Shown here piece after piece: positions 1,832-47,912 of a stretch of 64,000 nucleotides of DNA. The translations under genes and the position numbers were made by a program. Every line of letters begins with the position of its first letter. Within the stretch, counting starts at the first letter, position 1. Origin of the DNA: Escallonia rubra (Eukaryota; Streptophyta; Magnoliopsida; Escalloniales; Escalloniaceae); assembly GCA_033065855.1 (NCBI GenBank), contig JAVXUO010002027.1, positions 248,001 to 312,000 on the forward strand. The letters run 5' to 3'. Under the pieces are notes generated by a model that was not told the DNA's origin, did no database searches, and saw only the letters and a program-made list of their open reading frames with translations.

Positions 1832-4518
1832 GATATGACTACTATCTACTAGAGAATGGAGGCGGTATAGACATGTTGCCACATGCATGAATTCATTTAC
1901 ATATCAACCCTTCCTAATTATTGGTTCTAATTAGGAAGAAGGGGCTAAGGGTGAACAATTATTATATAATGGTTCCACCAATCCTAGATGGTCGGGACCA
2001 TTCATCTCGAACCACCCAAGACTTTGTGTACTTTACCACGTTGTTATGGGGGATGACGCTCGTGCCAAGCATCTGATCATGAGCAGTTAGAATTTATTTT
2101 GATGTTTTTAGCAACACTATTATGATCCTTAAAAACAAATGGTCAAATATATATGATAATTATGGTTATGGAGACAAATTCTTATCGTCACAAAAGGTGA
2201 ACGGAAAGAATCTGATTTGAGATAAATCTCAAGATGACAACAAAGATCCTGCTAGGATTGACAATTTGTATAATGCTACATTACCTGCTTGTTTAGCAAA
2301 AATCTTGGGAAGGGGGATTTTAGGTCGAGCGAATAGTTGACTTTATACTACACAAAAATCATAATTTGTTTTTACTTTTTATCTTCTAAAATGGGTCACA
2401 TAGAGAATGAACGGTCACATAGAGAATGAACGTGTAAAAAGGATAAAAACAATTTAAAACTTTGTCTAAAACTTGAATAACCAAAAGTAAAATTTACCCT
2501 TGAAGAGAAAGCAAAAAGAAGAAATAACAGCCACAATTGAAAGGGTCCCAAGTGGTACCATTGCTCTTCCCACATTATTGTACTTATTTTTTGGAATGTT
2601 TTGAACTGCAATTCAATATGGCCCGTCGGTATGGAGAATCGAACTCGGGACATCGATGTCATTCCTCGAGACCCTTTGTCACTTCCATCACCCTTTGGGG
2701 TTCACATTATTGTACTTGTTGTCAAGATTAATGAAAAAATCTAAGACATCTACTTCTTTTAATGTTATAAATGCCCCTGAAGATTCTCTACTTGTGGTTG
2801 TATGGATCCTTTTTGGAGAATAACACATCAAGGTTCCCGTGACTTTGAAGCTTGGAATGTCAATGACTCAATGTAGGTTTCAAGTGTCTAAGAGAATAAT
2901 AAATCAGAAAAGCTTTTTGGATTGGTCTTGTTATGCATCGGAAAAGAATATAAACGGTACGGCGTTGGTCGCAGTACGTTATCGAAAGAAAAAGAGAAAT
3001 CACACTTATGAAAGTTATATTTTGATTTTTGGGTACCAATTCAAATAAGAATTGCATTGATCAGATGGAAAATTTTGGAAAGAGCAAGTAATTTCTTCAA
3101 GAACAACCTCGAGGTTAATATTTGAGTTCTACTTTTAAAGTTCTATTTTTATCGCTAAATTTTTTAAAAAATATCACTATATAATCACCTTAATGACACT
3201 CAAAAAACTCAAACACCACAAAAGATATTCTTCAAATATCACTTTCCTAAAAAAAAATCATGATCATGCTAGTCAAATATAAGTCATTGATGAGTGTTAT
3301 TTCCAAAAGCAGCAAAACTGTACAAAGTGGATGTCTTTCACTCTTTCCTTCCAGGCTTCCAAAGCTACATTACAAAGTACCAGAAAAAGAAAAAGGAAAA
3401 TTAAAGCAAAGGGGTCGTAGAGACAGACTAGCACACATCCCAAAAGTGTTTTTGCCATTAAAAAGGGGAGTAATTGTCACCATAAGTCCATACATAAGAC
3501 AACAAACAGCTAAGGATGACAGGGGTTAATAATGCCTTTAATACCCAATAAATGGGGATGAGTAACAAAGGCAAAAGACAATTGAGCCAATTAAAGGCTG
3601 AGCCATGGTGTTGTGCCTTTTCATGTAAGGGAGAAATTGCTTTTCAAAAGAGACACCAAAAACAAGGACCTCAATCTTTGTGAAATTGTAGTTTAATCCC
3701 ACCATCTACTGCCACTTTCCACATCAGACGGATTGTGTTGTTAAAATCTCACGGGGCACCAAGCAGCTCAGCATTCCACCCAAGAAAAGAGCAGACGTGT
3801 GATGGTGAGAGGCATTTATGTTGATACAAGGCACGTGTGTTGAACTTGTGTGGTTTTTTTTTTTTTTTTGGAAGGCCATGATGCCATCGATGATCGACCT
3901 AAGACGAAGCTCGAGAAATTACATATGATTCCTTGTTATGCCGTGTATTGGGTTTCGAATCTCGCCTCAAACGCTTTGTATATGTGTAGGTTTGATGCGA
4001 TTGTTGTATCTGCAGTTTATCATTTTAGTTTATAAAGCAGAAGGGCTAAGCCTATTGGAACAAATGAAGAAAATCCGCCCTTGTATGAGATTATGCTTGT
4101 AACGAGATTTTTGACCCTCTTCTGCTCTCGAACCCAAGTAGACACTATTAAGTAATACTTTCGTTGCTTCAACTTGGAAATTTGTTATGTCAATACAGAA
4201 AGAATTTTCATGTAATGCAATGAGCCAACCAGGCAACCACGCGGTTTTCTCCTATGAATTCGAAGTATTATTCAAGGAAAAAAATGGAAAAATGCTTCTA
4301 TATCAAAAGTTTATCATGTGAATCAATCTAATAATTCGACCAAAAAAAAAGTGAATCAATCTAATCATTAAAAAATCTTGAGATGCGATCCTTGAAATGA
4401 ATGTTGAGTGATAGGCTGCCCATAAAACACTTACTCGACCCCACAAAAAATAAAAGCTTTCTTGAATAACATTTTCATTTTTGTCCTGTTATTTTCTTTA
4501 ACAGGTAAGGTGGTATCA
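1832..4518. other. A/T-rich spacer without a recognised gene
   Basis: Only short chance frames and low-complexity A/T tracts, apart from a SINE-like segment near 2.6 kb and a 16-base T run near 3854. I see no splice-delimited coding exons. Confidence 0.6.
2590..2700 (-). mobile_element. Possible tRNA-derived SINE
   Basis: Read on the minus strand there is a good Pol III B-box (GAGTTCGATTCTCC at about 2632-2645) preceded at tRNA-like distance by an A-box-like stretch. Ends and tail are not defined. It may be a degraded SINE or an isolated B-box match. Confidence 0.35.
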
Positions 4519-4527
4519 CTAACTACC

Positions 4528-5995
4528 GGATTAAATGCACATAAAACCCTATATTTTAGGGTCATTTACACAGAACACCTTAGGGTTTGAATTTTGATTC
4601 CCACCACCCCAAACTTTCAATTTTGGTGCACATAGCACCATTTGACGGTTTTTAGTCAATTTTTTGGGATGTCTGTTAGAAGCCAAAGGGCATAAATGTA
4701 ACTTCTTCCATAAACACACTGCCGACCTAATATTCTCTCTCCAAGTCAGACTCTCTCTCTCTCCCCCCCCCCTCTCTTTCATTTCATCTGCTAGCTGAGA
4801 GGACTCATCCACGCCCTCCACCTCCCGGCAACGACACGACAACAGTACATCCACCTCCTCCATCTTCCAGCGACGCGATCTACAATACCTTTTTCTTACG
4901 AAAATCGAAGCAGCCTGAAATCACTGCCATGGAAGAACCATCACCCACCGGCGACGACATAGCCGGATGACACATCTTCTGATCTGTTGAACCCTAAATT
5001 ACTGGTGCCGACACCTCCACCTAACGTCGGCGACATAGCAACGTCAATCTAGCTGAACACCGTTCACCGACGATGACACCTCCACCTCCCCCACCTTCCC
5101 GAGACGGCACATCCACCTCTTCCACCTTTCGGCACAACACTGATCGACACTCCTTTTATCCCTCCTCCAAAAACGATCTACGCTGTCATGGAAGAACCAT
5201 CACCAGCAGCTTGGGATGGCATAAAAGAATCTCTCGAATGTGTTAGGGCAAAGGATGTGTGCTTCGGGTGTGCGATAATCTGTAGTTTTGTGTGAATATG
5301 TGATGCTTGTGTGTATTGTGTGTTAATCTGTTGATGGCCGAATGGCTTAAGTTTGTAGAAGTCCCCAGATTTCTTGGCTTAAGTTTGTAGAAGTCCCCAG
5401 ATTTCGTCTTCACAGTCATTTAAAGAGCTCTTTACCCGGAATCATTTGGAGATGGGTTGAGTTGAAGTATTGTTTGTGAGGGTGATGGTTATGCAGTGCA
5501 TCTAGCTGAATAGCTTGGATGAGGGACGAAAGTTGCAGATACAGACGAGTGGGGGAAAGAGATAGGGGCTAAGATGGAAATACATGGATAACATCGTGAA
5601 GCGGCGGGGATTTAGCTATTTGGAGGAATGGCAGTTGACTAATCAGCTACTTTGGATTGTCTTTGAGTCTGTAATATACATACCATTTTAGCTTTCAACT
5701 TGCAGAAACAGGGTTTTCAGCTTTTGGGTGATGTGGCTGCCAACACCTTCGAGAGAGAGAGAGAGGGGTAAAACTCCAACGTTTGGGTGATGTGGCTGCC
5801 AACAAGGACATTTCAGTGAAGTGTCCATTTTGACCTTGAAATTATAACAGTCGTTCTCAGATTTTGAATTTCAACCGTCAAATGGTGCTATGTGCACCAA
5901 AATTGGAAGTTTGAGGTGGTGGGAATCAAAATTCAAACCCTGGGGTGTTCCGTGTAAATGACCCCAAAGTATGGGGTTTTATGTGCATTTAATCC
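4528..5995. mobile_element. Non-autonomous Mutator-like element (MULE)
   Basis: The ends are inverted repeats of about 124 bp (4528-4651 and 5872-5995), starting GGATTAAATGCAC and ending in its complement. They are flanked by a perfect 9-bp direct repeat CTAACTACC (4519-4527 and 5996-6004), the target-site size of Mutator elements. Length is 1468 bp. Inside there is no transposase. The middle has C/A-rich, coding-like DNA in which a block with ATGGAAGAACCATCACC occurs twice (4929 and 5190), and a segment containing AAGTTTGTAGAAGTCCCCAG is tandemly doubled near 5350-5405. The perfect duplication suggests a fairly recent insertion. The origin of the internal DNA is unknown. Confidence 0.85.
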
Positions 5996-7316: not shown

Positions 7317-9277
7317 GGGTTAAATACAAAATTGTCCATTGTCATATACTCTCATTTGTAATTCACCCCCCGTATTTTTAACTTTGACTATAATGTCCTC
7401 TGTGATCGACAAAATCATTGCAAACGAGTCCAAAACGTAACGTCCGTTCATTTTTAGGCTTTAAGTATATATGTGCAAAGCACATGCCATTTTTTTATGG
7501 GCAAATTGGTAAAATCCACTTTACTTCTTCTTGTTCTTTTCTAATGGTCCATGCATGCCCTGTTGAGATGCCTCTCAAGTTGTCCATCCATGCTCTTGCG
7601 GTCAATCTAACTAGCCCTCACAAACCTATCACTATTATTGTTCTCCGTCATATCTCCCACTTGTTTGTGCCCCTCCACCTTTCTCTATGTGTGTGTGTGT
7701 GTGTGTGTGTGTGCTCCGGCGAGTATATATACTCCGGCCATCACAAACCCATCAGAAGAACAAGCTCATCATAAAATGTGCAATGTTTATCACCCAACTG
7801 CTACTGCAACCAAACGCTGTCGAAACCTCTACTACAGTTTTCACCCATCACAACCTTCTATCGCCGCCCACCTACGGCCACCACCGACCACCAATTCCAC
7901 ATCCACAACCACCAATCTCAGACCTATGAAGCCACAGGCCTAGAAATCAAATCTATGGTCACTGGAGAGAGATTTCAGACTGTTCAAAATAATTTGGAAT
8001 TAGAAGGAGTCGGAATAAGTCAAAACCCAGAAACCCAAAAATCAATTCTTTGATCTTCTTCAATGCTAGTGGTCAGTGGTGGAGGGAGCAGGGGGCACCG
8101 ATAGGCCCGTGCCCACCTGTTTCTCCAGAATTTTTTCTCTTTAGATGGTATATTTTATCCTTAATGGTGAAAGTGCTCACCTAAAAATTTGTAAAATGAT
8201 TAAAGAATATGTATTTGTGGTCATTTTACATGTTAATATACCTAAAAGTTCCAAAGATGGTTAAAAAAAATCCTTTAAGTCATTTAAATGTTAAACTCGA
8301 ACAAATAAACCAAAAAAATAGAAACAAAACTTAATCTACGCATAAAATCAACAAAAAAAATGATTTTTACTTTCATTCTTACGGTTTTCAAAACCTCAAT
8401 ACTTTCAAGGCCTTAATTAAAGGTACATATCTGGACAAGAGAGCACCGCCTCCTCCTCAGTTCTCTCACTGCCCACCGACCTTACCTCCCGCCGGCACGC
8501 CCTCAACGGCCAACACCACTGCCTCCATTGGCCGGTCCACCTCCTGCAGGTCACGGTCTTGCGAGTCACGGCACCCTAAGCCCAAAGGTTACGGCCTCGC
8601 ATGCTTAGGCATGGCCTCAGGGGCGATTCACAGGCTCACCGGCGACGGCGCTCACGGACGGTAGTTGTCAGGTCAATTTTTCAACGATGACACTAATGGT
8701 CACGACAGTCTGTGCAAGCAAGAAAAGATCCAGTGATTGGTTCTTAAATTTTCTACTTCCAAGAACCCTTCCTTTTTGTTATCAATCTAGAATATGACAA
8801 TTAAGTTTTGAAACTTACAATATGCAATTAGAAATTGGTAGAATTTGACAATGACTGCTATTGTGATTATTAATTTTAGATTGAGATTTTGGTGCCTATC
8901 TTAAAAAAAAATTTGGCTCCACCACTGCTAGTGGTGTTGGGTTTTGTTGTAGTTGTTGTGGTAATGGTGTTGGGTGTAAGGATGGGATGGGGGGAAGGTG
9001 CGTAGTAAGGTGGTGGTGATTAGGTTATTATGTGCTGGCAGGCAGATGGTGAGTGGATGATTGGAAGGATATGTGCTAGATTTTACCAATTTGCCCATAA
9101 AAAATGGCATGTGCCTTGCACATGTAGACTTAACGCCCAAATATGAATGGACGTTACGTTTTGGACTCGTTTGCAGTAGTTTTGTCGATTACATGGGACA
9201 TTATAGGCAAAGTTAAAAATACAGGGAGTGAACTGCAAATACGTGTATATTGCAGGAGACCGTTTTGTATTTAACTC
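7317..9277. mobile_element. Non-autonomous MULE carrying a nested hAT
   Basis: Inverted repeats of about 200 bp (7317-7517 and 9079-9277) start G(G/A)GTTAAATAC and share the blocks AACGTAACGTCC, GCACATGCCAT and GGGCAAATTGGTAAAATC. The flanks are a 9-bp direct repeat with one mismatch, TATCTTAAT (7308-7316) and TATTTTAAT (9278-9286). The termini belong to the same family as the Pack-MULE at 43045-44254. There is no transposase. The interior has a GT microsatellite (7688-7712), a C/A-rich segment with short open frames and the hAT at 8074-8927. The corresponding point in duplication copy B lacks it. Confidence 0.88.
8074..8927. mobile_element. Non-autonomous hAT nested in the MULE
   Basis: An 854-bp element with termini CAGTGGTGGAGGGA and TGGCTCCACCACTG, flanked by a perfect 8-bp duplication CTAGTGGT (8066-8073 and 8928-8935), the size made by hAT transposases. 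It contains no transposase, only A/T-rich arms and a GC-rich core (about 8440-8680) without a clear frame. Its right arm is related to 1455-1831. The perfect duplication makes it younger than the MULE it entered. Confidence 0.88.
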
Positions 9278-42360: not shown

Positions 42361-43035
42361 ACTTGATGAGAAGTCAAAACAACCCTTAACTTAACTCTAA
42401 CAAAAACATATATTCTATTAAGAGTATTTTAAGGAAAAGGACTTGATATCCTATGAGAAGTCAAAAGACCAAGGCCCCTGTTCCAGAACTTGATCCCTCA
42501 CTTCAAACATAAAGACATAAACACCAATTTCTAGCAAACTAAATTCTATATCAAACTGAGTTTTACGGTCCCGCAATTACAACATTCAGTTTTTTGAAAG
42601 TTTCAAACTGAATCGGGTTGAGAAACTTGAAACAAAATCGTTAAATTTTTTAATGATTCAAATTGGATCGGTTCAATTCGATCAATTTAAGCGGTCCGGG
42701 TCGATTGAAAAGCTACGATACTCGCTCTTTGAGAGCATCGCTTGACCATTGGGAGTAGTCTTGCTGACCATTTTGCTGAGGTGGATTAATTTGCTGCATC
42801 ATCTGTGATGTGGCATTATTTTCCCCGCTAAGCATTTTTACCCAGCTGAGAAGATTGGATTAGCTACGTTATGTCCCCCAATTCTCCTCCATCTTCATGC
42901 CTCTGAGCTTGTTCCCCAAGCATCTCAAGGCGGTCCACGGAGTCAATCTGACCGACGCCACTCCGCCTTACATGCCGTCGTAGACAATAACATTCCGGTT
43001 TCAACCGCCGCGCTAATATCTAAGAACGAGATTCT
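42361..43035. other. Spacer left of the Pack-MULE
   Basis: Degenerate A/T-rich DNA with a patch of GATTCAAATTGGATCGGTT type (42640-42710). No gene seen. Confidence 0.55.
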
Positions 43036-43044
43036 CTTGTAGAA

Positions 43045-44254
43045 GGGTTAATTACAAAACTGTCCACTAAGGTTTACACGTTTTTGTATTTTACTCCCGT
43101 GTATACAACTTTTGCAATAGTGTCCCCCGAGGTTGACAAAACCATTACAAACAGTTCCAAAATTGGACGTCCGTTCAATTTTGGACATTAAATCCTCATG
43201 TGCGGTGCACATGCCATTTTGGCATGGGCAAATTTGTAATTCCCCTACCCCATCTTCCCCACTGTGTTCATCTCTCTCTCTCTCTCATGATCTACTACAG
43301 GCGAGAAATATATGATCCGGAAACATTACATGCACTTGACGGAAGAGCTTCTGAAAGAGAACCCCAACATGTGTGCCTACATGGCCTCATCCCTCGACGC
43401 CCGCCAAGTGGTCGTCGAAATCCCCAAGCTCGGCAAGGAAGTCGTCGCCAAGGCCATCTAGGTGTGGGTCCAGCCTAAGTCCAAGATCACCCACCTCGTC
43501 TTCTGCACCACCGCCGGCGTCGACATGCTCGGCGCCAACTACCAGCTCACTAAGCTCCTCGGCCTCCGCCCTTCCGTCAAGAGGCTCATGATGAACCAAC
43601 AGGGTTGCTTCGCTGGCGGCACCGTCCTCCGCCTGGACAAGGATCTCTGTACTCCCTCGTTGGGCAGGCTCTTTTCGGTGATGGTGCTGCAGCCGTGATC
43701 GTAGGCGCCGATCCCGATGTCTCCGTCGAGCGCCCGCTGTTCCAACTGGTGTCTGCGGCGCAGACCATTCTGCCGGACTCCGACGGTGCAATAGATGGAC
43801 ATTTGCGCGAAGTGGGGCTCGCATTTCATCTACTAAAGGATGTGCCCGGGTTGATTTCAAAGAACATCGAGAAGTCGCTGAAAGAAGCTTTTGCCCAGTT
43901 TGTAATCAGTGACTGGAACTCGTTGTTTTGGATCGCTCACCCAGGTGGTCCGACGATTCTGGACCATATGGAGGCAAAGCTGTGACTCAAGGAGGAGAAG
44001 ATGGGGAAGGGGAACAGAGAGAGAGAGATGAACACAGTGTGGAAGAAAGAGGAAGAGAAATAACAAATTTGTCCATGCCAAAATGGGATGTGCACTGCAC
44101 ATAAGGACTTAATATCCAAAATTGAACGGACGTCCAATTTTGGAACTGTTTGCAATGATTTTGTCAACCTCGAGGACACTGCTGCAAAAATTGTAAATAC
44201 GGAAACAAAGTGCAAAAACGTGTAAACCTTAAGGGATAGTTTTGTAATTAACCC
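43045..44254 (+). mobile_element. Pack-MULE carrying a chalcone synthase fragment
   Basis: A 1210-bp element with inverted repeats of about 240 bp (43045-43287 and 44016-44254) starting GGGTTAATTACAAAACT. They share blocks with the MULE at 7317-9277 (GACAAAA.CATT, ACGTCCGTTCA, GTGCACATGCCATTTT). The 9-bp flanks CTTGTAGAA (43036-43044) and CTCGTAAAA (44255-44263) match at 7 of 9 positions. Almost all of the DNA between the repeats is a type III polyketide synthase fragment (43301-44003), the definition of a Pack-MULE. It ends about 305 bp before the TATA box of the BiP gene. The mismatched duplication suggests an insertion older than the MULE at 4528. Confidence 0.88.
43301..44003 (+). pseudogene. 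CHS-like (fragment): Captured chalcone synthase exon 2 fragment
   Basis: The fragment begins right after an intron-like acceptor (CTACTACAG), at the point where CHS exon 2 starts inside a Cys codon, then reads [91 protein letters not shown] and [10 protein letters not shown]. It is broken: a stop replaces Lys in KAI(K)EW, about 29 codons including the catalytic Cys region (VVCSEITAVTF) are missing and the frame shifts there, and a stop follows EAKL. The His of FWIAHPGG is kept, but the sequence ends before the catalytic Asn. It cannot make an active enzyme. The source gene is not in this window. Codons are C-ending and GC-rich, unlike the neighbours. Confidence 0.92.
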
Positions 44255-44451
44255 CTCGTAAAATCCTGGTATGTTACCTAGAACGGTTTATCACTGTACT
44301 TAATTTTTTGTCTGGCAACACACATAGTACACAGCAAATTAGGACATCAAATTACAACGTACGAGTAATTCATACGCTATTACGAGTCCTTCTCAGAGTG
44401 TGCTTCTCCTAGCTAGAGATTAATCTGGTTGGATCACTTGGTTGGACTACG

Positions 44452-44558: not shown

Positions 44559-44566
44559 TATAAATA
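44559..44566 (+). promoter_or_regulatory. TATA box of the BiP gene
   Basis: TATAAATA, 65 bp before the BiP ATG, leaving room for a short leader. Confidence 0.7.
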
Positions 44567-44630: not shown

Positions 44631-47600
44631 ATGGCGGTCAAGCACACAGCATTCGTGCTTCTTCTTCTCTTCCTTTCAGGTAGCTTAATTAACCAAGTCT
44701 AGTTGTAGTACCCTTATGGGGTTCTTCTTTTTTGTACTTCTCTGTGTTTGTTTTGGTTTTATTGGTTAATCTGCTCCTACTCTTTTCAAAGGAAGGAAGA
44801 CAACGTTTTTGTTTTGACTGAATGATGGTCTTAAAACTGTAAGGAAAAGCTTTTCTTCATGAATTTGCCTAATGGTACCTTTTCAACTTAGAAGTTGAAG
44901 GGTGCTCTGTCCATAGCATACTGTCAACTTTGAATCTTCAAAACGTAAACCAACATACTAACTTTTCTTCTGTGTTTGAAAAGCTTTCCCTTTCTTCTGC
45001 CCTGCTAGCTTCGCTTCCACTTTTCTTGTTGAATCAAAGAATTTGTCTAACCACTTATTGGCATCAAACCTTTTTCCTGGCTTAGCAAGTGTATTTACCG
45101 ATATAGAGAAAGGTAGTCTTGCACAACCTCTCTCATTCATCTCTTGTAACAACCTTTTCGCCTCAGCCTGGTATGATCCTTCTAACTGCCTTTCCAGCTC
45201 TGGTTGTTTTGGTAGCTTGCACCAGTCGCTTATTAGTATGTCATAAGTCGAAGAATTATATGGAACCTGCCCAACTTGCATCTCATTCAGAAGCTCTCTT
45301 GGCTGTCTCATCTTTCCCACCTTAGCAAAATCACATGAAATCAGTACCCACAACATACAAACTTCCCGTATTCAGAGTTCGTTGCACACTAAGACCTACA
45401 AATAATTTGTTCATAAGGTTAGTACGTTTAGCATCACTATTTTTTATGACGTCTCTAAATTTCTGCGTTGCATTGTGAAGAAATTTTGGTAGGAATAGCT
45501 GTAGCAGCCGAGAGCTCGTCAAAGCCTGAAACAGTAATTGGGATTGATCTGGGGACTACTTATTCTGCTGTGGGTGTGTTTCAAGACGATAAATATGAGA
45601 TTATCGCGAATGATCAAGGAAACAGAATCACCCCATCCTGGGTCGCATTTACGGATACGGAGCGTCTGATTGGCGAGGCAGCAAAGAATCAAGCGGCTCT
45701 CAATCCTGAACGCACGATCTTTGATGTTAAGAGGCTAATTGGAAGAAAGTAAGTGATTGTAACTTATGGTGTCTTCTACTTGTAATCTTTTCCTGAGTTC
45801 GATTCTAATGGTTTATATGGTATCATCTGGTAGGTTTGATGATCCTGAGGTCCAGAGAGACATGAAGTTGTTGCCTTACAAGATTGTGAACAAAGATGGG
45901 AAGCCTTATATAGAGGTTAAGATCAAAGATGGTGAGGTTAAGGTGTTTAGCCCTGAGGAGATCAGTGCTATGATTTTGGGCAAGATGAAGGAAACAGCAG
46001 AGTCTTACTTGGGAAAGAAAGTCAATCACGCGGTCATCACTGTACCAGGTAGAGTCTCAATCCTAAATCTTTTACTATTCCCCGTATTTCAGCATATTGT
46101 GGACCAAACAGATTCAATGTTAAAGTTTTCAAATTTTTTCGGTGTAGCGTATTTCAATGATGCCCAAAGGCAGGCCACCAAGGATGCAGGCACCATTGCC
46201 GGTCTCAATGTGGAACGGATAGTAAACGAGCCCACAGCAGCTGCCCTAGCCTATGGTCTTAATAAAAATGAAGACGAGAGTAACATTTTGGTTTTTGATC
46301 TTGGTGGTGGTACATTTGACGTTAGCATCCTGACCATTGATGACGGTGTGTTTGAGGTTCGTTCCACCAGTGGGGACACCCACTTGGGTGGAGAAGATTT
46401 TGATCACAGAGTGATGGACTACTTCATCAAGTTGATTAAGAGAAAATACAACAAAGATATCAGCAAAGATAACAAGGCTCTAGGAAAGCTTAGAAAGGAA
46501 TGTGAGAGAGCCAAGAGGGCATTGAGTAACCAGCACCAAGTTCGTGTTGAAATTGAGGCACTTTTTGAGGGTATTGACTTATCAGAGCCACTGACGAGGG
46601 CAAGGTTTGAGGAACTGAACATGGATCTGTTTAAAAAGACGATGGGGCCTGTAAAGAAGGCTATGGAGGACGCAGGTTTCAAGAAGACGGATATCAAGGA
46701 AATAGTGTTGGTTGGAGGCAGCACTCGGATCCCTAAGGTACAACAGCTGTTGAAGGATTACTTCAATGGAAAAGAGCCTAGCAAGGGTGTTAATCCGGAT
46801 GAGGCTGTTGCCTATGGTGCCACAGTTCAAGGTGGAATCCTCAGCGGTGAAGCCGGTAAAGGTATGGATTTGCTTGGAGTGAATGTGTTCAGCAGATTAG
46901 GTGCAGAGTTAATGCATTTAATATGGTTTAATTTAATGTGGTTTTCTGCGTCTTGTTTTCTTGCAGGTGTTCTTTTGCTTGATATTGCTCCTTTGAGTCT
47001 GGGAATTGAGACGGTCGGTGGGGTTATGACAAAATTGATCCCAAGAAACACCGTCATCCCAACCAAGAAATCTCAGATCTTCAGTACATATCAAGACCAG
47101 CAAACCACAGTGTCAATTAAGGTATAGCAAAGAACATGCACAGAGATACCATGATTTGGAAATTCCAGCTTGTTTCTTGTGATCTTATGTTTTCTTGGAC
47201 CAAAAAATTGTATAGGTTTATGAAGGTGAGAGGAGCTTGACCAAAGATTGTCGTGAACTTGGACAATTTGACCTGTCTGGCATTCCACCTGCTCCAAGGT
47301 AAGAGCAGTCGAACTTTAGCTAGCGTTTATATGAACATAACAAATGTTGTGGTATTTCAAGTAGCATGTGATAATTGGTACATAATGAGGCCTTAGGATA
47401 CATGAAAATATTCTTGGCTTTCTCGCAGGGGAGTGCCACAGATTGAGGTTACCTTTCAGGTAGACGCAAATGGTATACTCCAAGTAACAGCAGAGGACAA
47501 GGCGGCAAAGAAGTCACAATCCATTACCATATCCAACGAGAAAGGCCGTCTCAGCCAGGAGGAGATTGACCAAAAAGTGAAGGAAGCAGAGGAGTTTGCA

Positions 47601-47912
47601 GAGGAGGATAGGATGGTGAAAGAGAGGATTGAAGCCAGAAACAAGCTCGAGACTTACATTTACAACATGAAGAGCAGTGTTGGTGACAGTGACAAGTTGG
47701 GTGACAAGATAGATTCCGATGACAAGGAGAAGCTTGAGAGCGCGTTGAAGGATGCTCTTGAATGGTTGGATGATAACCAGCATGCCGAGAAAGACGAGCT
47801 TGATGAGAAGATGAAAGAATTGGAAGACGTCTTCAACCCTGTCGTAAGACAGGCTTATGCTGAGCATGGGCGAAGCGCTGTTGAAGATGAAGAGGAAGAC
47901 AGTGAATTATAG
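44631..47912 (+). CDS. ER luminal binding protein BiP (Hsp70), with non-HDEL tail
   Basis: Seven exons in consistent phase: 44631-44679, 45493-45748, 45834-46048, 46148-46861, 46967-47121, 47216-47298 and 47429-47912, giving 651 residues. A signal peptide (1-22, [22 protein letters not shown]) leads into the ATPase domain with IDLGTTYS (34-41) and [10 protein letters not shown] (224-233), the linker [10 protein letters not shown], the substrate domain and an acidic C-terminal lid. BiP binds nascent and misfolded proteins in the ER in ATP-driven cycles. Sequence is closest in feel to the inducible BiP3 type (AESSSK start). Odd points: the protein ends EEEDSEL instead of the HDEL retrieval signal, the loop before the linker is a few residues short (SGEAGKG), and intron 1 holds an antisense PPR retrocopy. 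Otherwise no break is seen. Confidence 0.95.
44965..45350 (-). pseudogene. 5'-truncated retrocopy of the PPR gene in BiP intron 1
   Basis: This segment matches the last 110 or so codons and early 3' UTR of the PPR gene (about 29527-29915), at roughly 85% by eye, with shared peptides [16 protein letters not shown]-like, [20 protein letters not shown] and KWLDKF. Small length differences shift parts of the frame. It is flanked by a 14-bp direct repeat with one mismatch, CAACATACTAACTT (44951-44964) and CAACATACAAACTT (45351-45364), as in L1-type retroposition, but only a weak A-rich tail is visible. It is antisense to the BiP transcript, so BiP pre-mRNA carries sequence complementary to PPR mRNA. 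Confidence 0.85.

Follow-up and report, generated by a model that had tools for sequence, protein, structure and literature searches.

The window analysed here is a stretch of 64,000 nucleotides of Escallonia rubra DNA which carries, at positions 43045-44254, a 1210-bp non-autonomous Mutator-like element (Pack-MULE) with a fragment of a chalcone synthase (CHS) gene between its termini. The element has GGGTTAATTACAAAAC at one end and its complement at the other. Its terminal inverted repeats (TIRs; 43045-43283 against 44254-44016) are 239 bp long and 87% identical, which lies within the range of about 100-500 bp for the long TIRs of MULEs and bears out the repeats of about 240 bp given in a preliminary description of this DNA. 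The left TIR begins with GGGTTAATTACAAAACTGTCC and, together with the CT-rich tract at its inner end, occupies 43045-43288 on the forward strand, and the right TIR plus an inner GA-rich tract occupies 44001-44254 on the reverse strand. Each TIR contains a near-palindrome (43156-43185, running from TCCAAAATTGGACG to CGTTCAATTTTGGA, and 44115-44144), the left one of which served as the marker of the family. Between the TIRs, on the forward strand, are the final 12 nt of CHS intron 1 (GATCTACTACAG; 43289-43300) and a pseudogenised fragment comprising only the 5' part of CHS exon 2 (43301-44000). The TIRs and the CHS segment account for all 1210 bp, and there is no internal transposase. The element is flanked by the 9-bp sequences CTTGTAGAA (43036-43044) and CTCGTAAAA (44255-44263). 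Downstream, outside the element and on the forward strand, lies a gene running from ATG to stop at 44631-47912 (exon 1 and its splice site placed by eye), which we take by its sequence to be that of the luminal-binding Hsp70, BiP. Its TATA box (TATAAAT, 44559-44565, forward strand) lies 304 bp past the element end at 44254, as the earlier estimate of about 0.3 kb had it, and the element ends 376 bp upstream of the ATG with the CHS fragment in the same direction as BiP. To the left of the element, a stretch of about 95 bp (42371-42466) recurs many times genome-wide, often several times within a few kilobases.

The two flanks match at 7 of 9 positions, CTCGTAAAA differing from CTTGTAGAA by two changes, and had been read as a target-site duplication. 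By itself a match of this size is weak evidence: when flanks from two different elements were paired as a control (n=2756), 7 or more matches were found in 6.1% of pairings, and never 9, although shifted positions of the elements' own flanks gave 7 or more in only 35 of 4823 comparisons. The point is settled by an empty site. A search with the flanks led to a paralogue of BiP which lies on the same contig but the other way round (C2539:141611-142139; L067). At this paralogous site in the same genome both flanks join at a single CTTGTAGAA, identical to the left copy in the window, and the element is absent. The window flanks are therefore a true 9-bp target-site duplication; evidence to the contrary was looked for and was not found. 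The single copy at the empty site also places the insertion after the two BiP paralogues had parted, perfect excision from the paralogue being an unlikely alternative.

The cargo, window positions 43289-44000, matches a CHS gene on contig C2913 (L009) at 92-93% identity. This gene, the parental gene whose identification had been proposed as a check, begins with an exon that holds the ATG, followed by an intron and a second exon, which is open for 334 codons counted from its first whole codon and scores as Chal_sti_synt_N and Chal_sti_synt_C; the intron-exon junction is the same as in the element. No TIR of the element family was found around it in the 9 kb read. The captured segment corresponds to gene coordinates 4177 to about 4979, the final three bases to 4982 matching partly. 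The presence of a CHS exon 2 fragment, as first described, thus stands, but the fragment does not start exactly at the exon boundary: capture began 12 nt 5' of exon 2, within intron 1, and ended inside exon 2 at window position 44000. Because intron 1 bases stand at its start and its end lies inside exon 2, the CHS segment was captured as DNA. The 12 intron 1 nt are present at the left junction in all five of the aligned copies of the same structural type (type A, below), the window's included, and two of the 12 are changed in L011. GC makes up 58.7% of the captured stretch but 36.2% of intron 1 and 38-40% of the kilobases on either side, in agreement with the GC bias of Pack-MULEs mentioned in PMC8277862. 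Two stretches of the gene, of 6 bp and 85 bp, are missing from the window copy; the 85-bp deletion, whose junction is at 43646-43647 (forward strand) with ends that overlap by TC, is found in none of the other five type A copies. In the CHS frame of the gene, the window copy has a TAG (43459-43461, forward strand, where the gene has a lysine codon) and a TGA. At five sites (101, 166, 213, 538 and 590) the CHS gene differs from the elements covering them, and the elements match the outgroup, with a third base at site 213 in 4 of 36 elements. Strictly, therefore, the source is the ancestor of the C2913 gene or a lost close relative.

Copies elsewhere were sought by searching the genome at the protein level with CHS exon 2 as query, which gave 109 matches from 133 candidates, 120 of these being scored. 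By hand count the CHS fragment is present at 52 places, the window included, a number that excludes the CHS gene clusters on C2913, C1477, C1127, C1128 and C2708, two distant type III PKS-like loci (C1716 and C1926) and the weak matches on C1987, C1202 and C1407. Sequence was read at 37 of the 52 places; the CHS fragments there are 78-94% identical to the gene, and at least one TIR of the window element's family is present in all 37, so that a CHS fragment free of these termini, which if found at the orthologous site had been named beforehand as adverse to a Pack-MULE, was not met with among them. Both element ends are present at 35 of the 37, the remaining two (L047 and L054), with one TIR found each, standing outside the set of 53 elements described below. 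The flanks are common to L012 and L015 and to L016 and L017, which leaves 33 independent insertions among the 35, and the element has accordingly been mobile after capture. These two pairs, and likewise L044 and L045, have the same flanks on different contigs and represent unmerged haplotypes or segmental duplicates, so that raw copy counts overstate the true number to some extent; the right flank that L015 shares with its partner is interrupted after about 48 bp.

Perfect 9-bp duplications flank 23 of the 35 CHS elements, and 32 have at least 7 matching positions. The three below this value are L014 and L027, with one eroded end each, and L053, which reaches 8 of 9 only with one end moved by a base. 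A further 18 elements, chosen by their TIRs, include 12 with perfect duplications and 17 that reach 7, so that among all 53 elements with both ends located the match is at least 7 of 9 in 49 and complete in 35. Together with the empty site, these counts give the family the target-site duplication of 9-11 bp that is characteristic of MULEs.

The TIR family extends well beyond CHS. The near-palindromic marker has 263 and 264 matches in the genome at up to two mismatches, against 0 for the control, so the proposed search for the same termini uncovered a large family; the count would fit some 260 elements or more. The 18 elements chosen by their TIRs fall into ten cargo groups, among them fragments matching a PROPPIN-type autophagy protein (7e-9), an LRR protein (1.6e-13) and a glycosyltransferase (PDB 6lzx, 5e-27), and an F-box protein match below the cut-off. 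Seven of ten cargo proteins submitted to Pfam had no family match, including the glycosyltransferase fragment identified via PDB 6lzx. An autonomous partner was sought through the transposase domain PF10551, which is abundant in the genome (3309 first-look candidates, 150 scored); by eye and on partial lists, none of the 150 scored matches lay within 18 kb of listed TIRs. Nor was a transposase seen by eye among open reading frames of at least 60 aa in the wide TIR pair L068 or of at least 70 aa in the wide pair L070; one of these reading frames was put to Pfam and had no match. L068 (C1060:539450-543050) is a 3.5-kb element of the family with a reading frame that matches no Pfam family but by eye resembles the start of an LRR-type protein. 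L070 (C1749:324150-327000), which also belongs to the family, has three copies of the TIR and recalls the multi-TIR MULEs treated in PMC3310237. The window itself holds a second, related TIR pair at 7317-9277, about 1.96 kb apart and 72-73% identical to the TIRs of the family; its flanks, TATCTTAAT and TATTTTAAT, match at 8 of 9 positions with the right end placed at 9277, and it is a diverged relative.

The CHS elements read are of five structural types, defined in gene coordinates with starts that vary by a few bases: type A (4177-4982; the window copy and five others), type B (4358-4982), type C (4358-4738), type D (4264-4677 or 4264-4800) and type E (4278-4499). Exceptions are L051 and L063 (type D), which are interrupted, L028 (type C), which is shorter, L062 (type E), which ends earlier, and L015 (type A), which has a 1.4-kb insert. 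The right junction between CHS and TIR is common to types A, B and C, and in 11 of 12 type C elements the last captured CHS bases (from about 4958) adjoin the TIR while 4739-4957 are lost; the twelfth, L053, does not show this. Since the right junction is the same and type C keeps the terminal CHS bases, types A, B and C descend from one capture. A fragment resembling a carboxylesterase, which scores 7.2e-13 against PF07859 in L064, is common to types B and C; an LRR N-terminal fragment (PF08263, 1.4e-5) is present in at least one type D element, L052. Four type E elements (L055, L056, L057 and L061) contain a tandem repeat of about 77-82 bp in mid-element (element positions 864-1022 in L055).

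Whether types D and E go back to the same event is less clear-cut. The same CHS exon may have been captured twice independently, once for A, B and C (4177-4982) and once for D and E (4264-4800), a reading with a substantial chance of being right, if somewhat short of an even one: the junctions of D and E are different, the LRR-gene fragment of L052 lies on the left, and the D and E TIRs match those of the window element over a shorter length at 72-86%. On the other hand, the D and E segments read lie nested within the type A segment, and a single clade of all elements was not rejected by the AU test (p 0.33); none of the four groupings tried was rejected. The tree of the CHS segments is star-like, with a gene branch of 0.016, element end branches of 0 to 0.08 and well-supported inner branches in 6 of 37 cases.

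Selection on the captured CHS was assessed from private substitutions in 33 of the 37 rows (L017 and L056 being left out as near-duplicates, L028 and L053 as short or gappy) at sites where most elements agree with the gene. Among 242 private substitutions, 167 are non-synonymous or stops, against 165.5 expected (sd 6.2), and 9 private stops compare with 7.6 expected. The substitutions fit neutrality, as for cargo not kept for its protein, and a coding function is unsupported. Raw dN/dS against the gene ranges from 0.32 to 1.11, mostly below 0.8, and alone would suggest constraint; we attribute the low values to the gene branch being constrained and to third positions being rich in GC, which the spectrum-matched test allows for. 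In one element, L012, the CHS frame is free of stops and frameshifts, which alone does not show function.

At BiP, the insertion splits a block conserved between the paralogues (left 127 bp, 93%; right 337 bp, 93%), and on the right side the duplication and the ATG are 367 bp apart, an interval of which these 337 bp align to the uninserted paralogue. The first introns are 97% identical over the 432 bp comparable, and an 11-bp stretch and some 24 bp near the ATG of the window promoter are absent from the paralogue. Both paralogues end in DSEL (47901-47912 in the window; L069), where HDEL is the usual C-terminal end of plant BiP, so that their ER retention may differ from the usual. An alteration of BiP transcription by the element, through a TIR promoter or through chromatin, which the preliminary description had raised with due caution, would draw on its position so close upstream of the ATG with co-oriented cargo, on the interruption of the conserved block, and on the promoters documented in MULE TIRs (PMC3310237). 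Against it, neither paralogue has lost the TATA box or the TGACGTCA site, which lie beyond the downstream end of the element, most of the sequence up to BiP is preserved as in the uninserted copy, and the window element is decayed. Between the element and the ATG no exact match to the canonical ER-stress motifs ERSE, ERSE-II or UPRE was found. An effect on BiP is possible but unsupported, and we consider it improbable; our preferred account takes BiP to be unaffected.

Equally doubtful is an action in trans, likewise suggested at the outset, in which the dispersed fragments would give rise to CHS-homologous small RNAs that tune the CHS gene. The number of CHS places and the identity of those read to the gene would favour it, and Pack-MULEs as regulators of their parental genes, and as sources of small RNAs, are discussed in PMC8277862 and PMC3310237. 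From the layout, however, the CHS part would form the loop between the TIRs and not a hairpin stem, the fragments evolve neutrally, and a divergence of at least 6% would leave few long perfect matches. A wider version, in which the whole high-copy family with its carboxylesterase-CHS and LRR-CHS chimeras would be a dispersed source of CHS small RNAs and would spread regulation into promoters such as that of BiP, seems a shade less likely again. Least likely of all is that the CHS segment arose as a processed (retro) copy, or that it is some CHS pseudogene which has come to lie between inverted repeats by chance: it is an exon fragment with stops, but the intron bases and the junctions rule out a retro-copy, and further copies of this segment lie between these TIRs at other places, with 9-bp duplications of their own.

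The interval 43045-44254 is thus almost certainly a decayed Pack-MULE whose CHS DNA was captured and amplified, and which was inserted beside BiP and then eroded, and the identification made in the preliminary description is upheld by the TIRs, the duplication with its empty site and the CHS match. The course of events was as follows. An ancestral element of the TIR family copied GC-rich intron 1-exon 2 DNA of the C2913 CHS gene or its direct ancestor, probably by a repair or template-switch mechanism, and the resulting chimera multiplied by transposition, presumably with transposase supplied in trans by an autonomous relative, insertions generating 9-bp duplications. Further divergence within the family came from deletions inside the elements and from other pieces of host sequence that were acquired or brought in by recombination. 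A copy that inserted 376 bp upstream of the ATG of one BiP paralogue, after the paralogues had separated, afterwards lost 85 bp and acquired stop codons.

In its long TIRs, 9-bp duplications, lack of transposase and host gene fragments, and in the occurrence of multi-copy and multi-gene elements with GC-rich cargo, the family resembles the Pack-MULEs of rice and other plants as presented in PMC3310237, PMC8277862 and PMC8903248; it differs in that its cargo is CHS exon 2. No published description of a CHS-carrying Pack-MULE was found, judging by titles and abstract openings. The tomato Pack-MULE PM-ZIBP is likewise a gene-carrying MULE group amplified within one genome (PMC3310237), and L070 with its three TIR copies is a further parallel, but the CHS elements read have no tandem TIRs and their cargo is different. 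The CHS group (52 places, fewer after merging of duplicate contigs, in five types) exceeds the copy numbers of 13 for a gene-carrying element and 29 for another given for tomato. The KI-MULE with its ULP-like protease is also a MULE that duplicated a host gene (PMC8277862). The CHS cargo, in contrast, is a neutrally evolving fragment. KI-MULEs, also named Kaonashi, are an amplified group as well. Extra CHS sequence is also present in the soybean genome, where CHS inverted repeats at the I locus silence CHS and the CHS genes themselves form the repeat, whereas here CHS is transposon cargo between TIRs and silencing is only hypothetical.

The element is a good example, though not an exceptional one, of a known class. 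New are the empty site, the source gene together with the limits of what was captured from it, the spread to about 50 places, chimeric derivatives included, and the neutrality of the cargo. Together they make an unusually complete history of gene capture: the source gene is still alive, the boundaries are known to a few bases, the target exists both with and without the element, and the derivatives form a series. At present the CHS copies look like neutral debris. Were the small-RNA reading true, a pigment-pathway gene would be tuned by transposon cargo. The family lends itself to the question whether copies of a pathway gene that are carried by transposons affect the parent gene.
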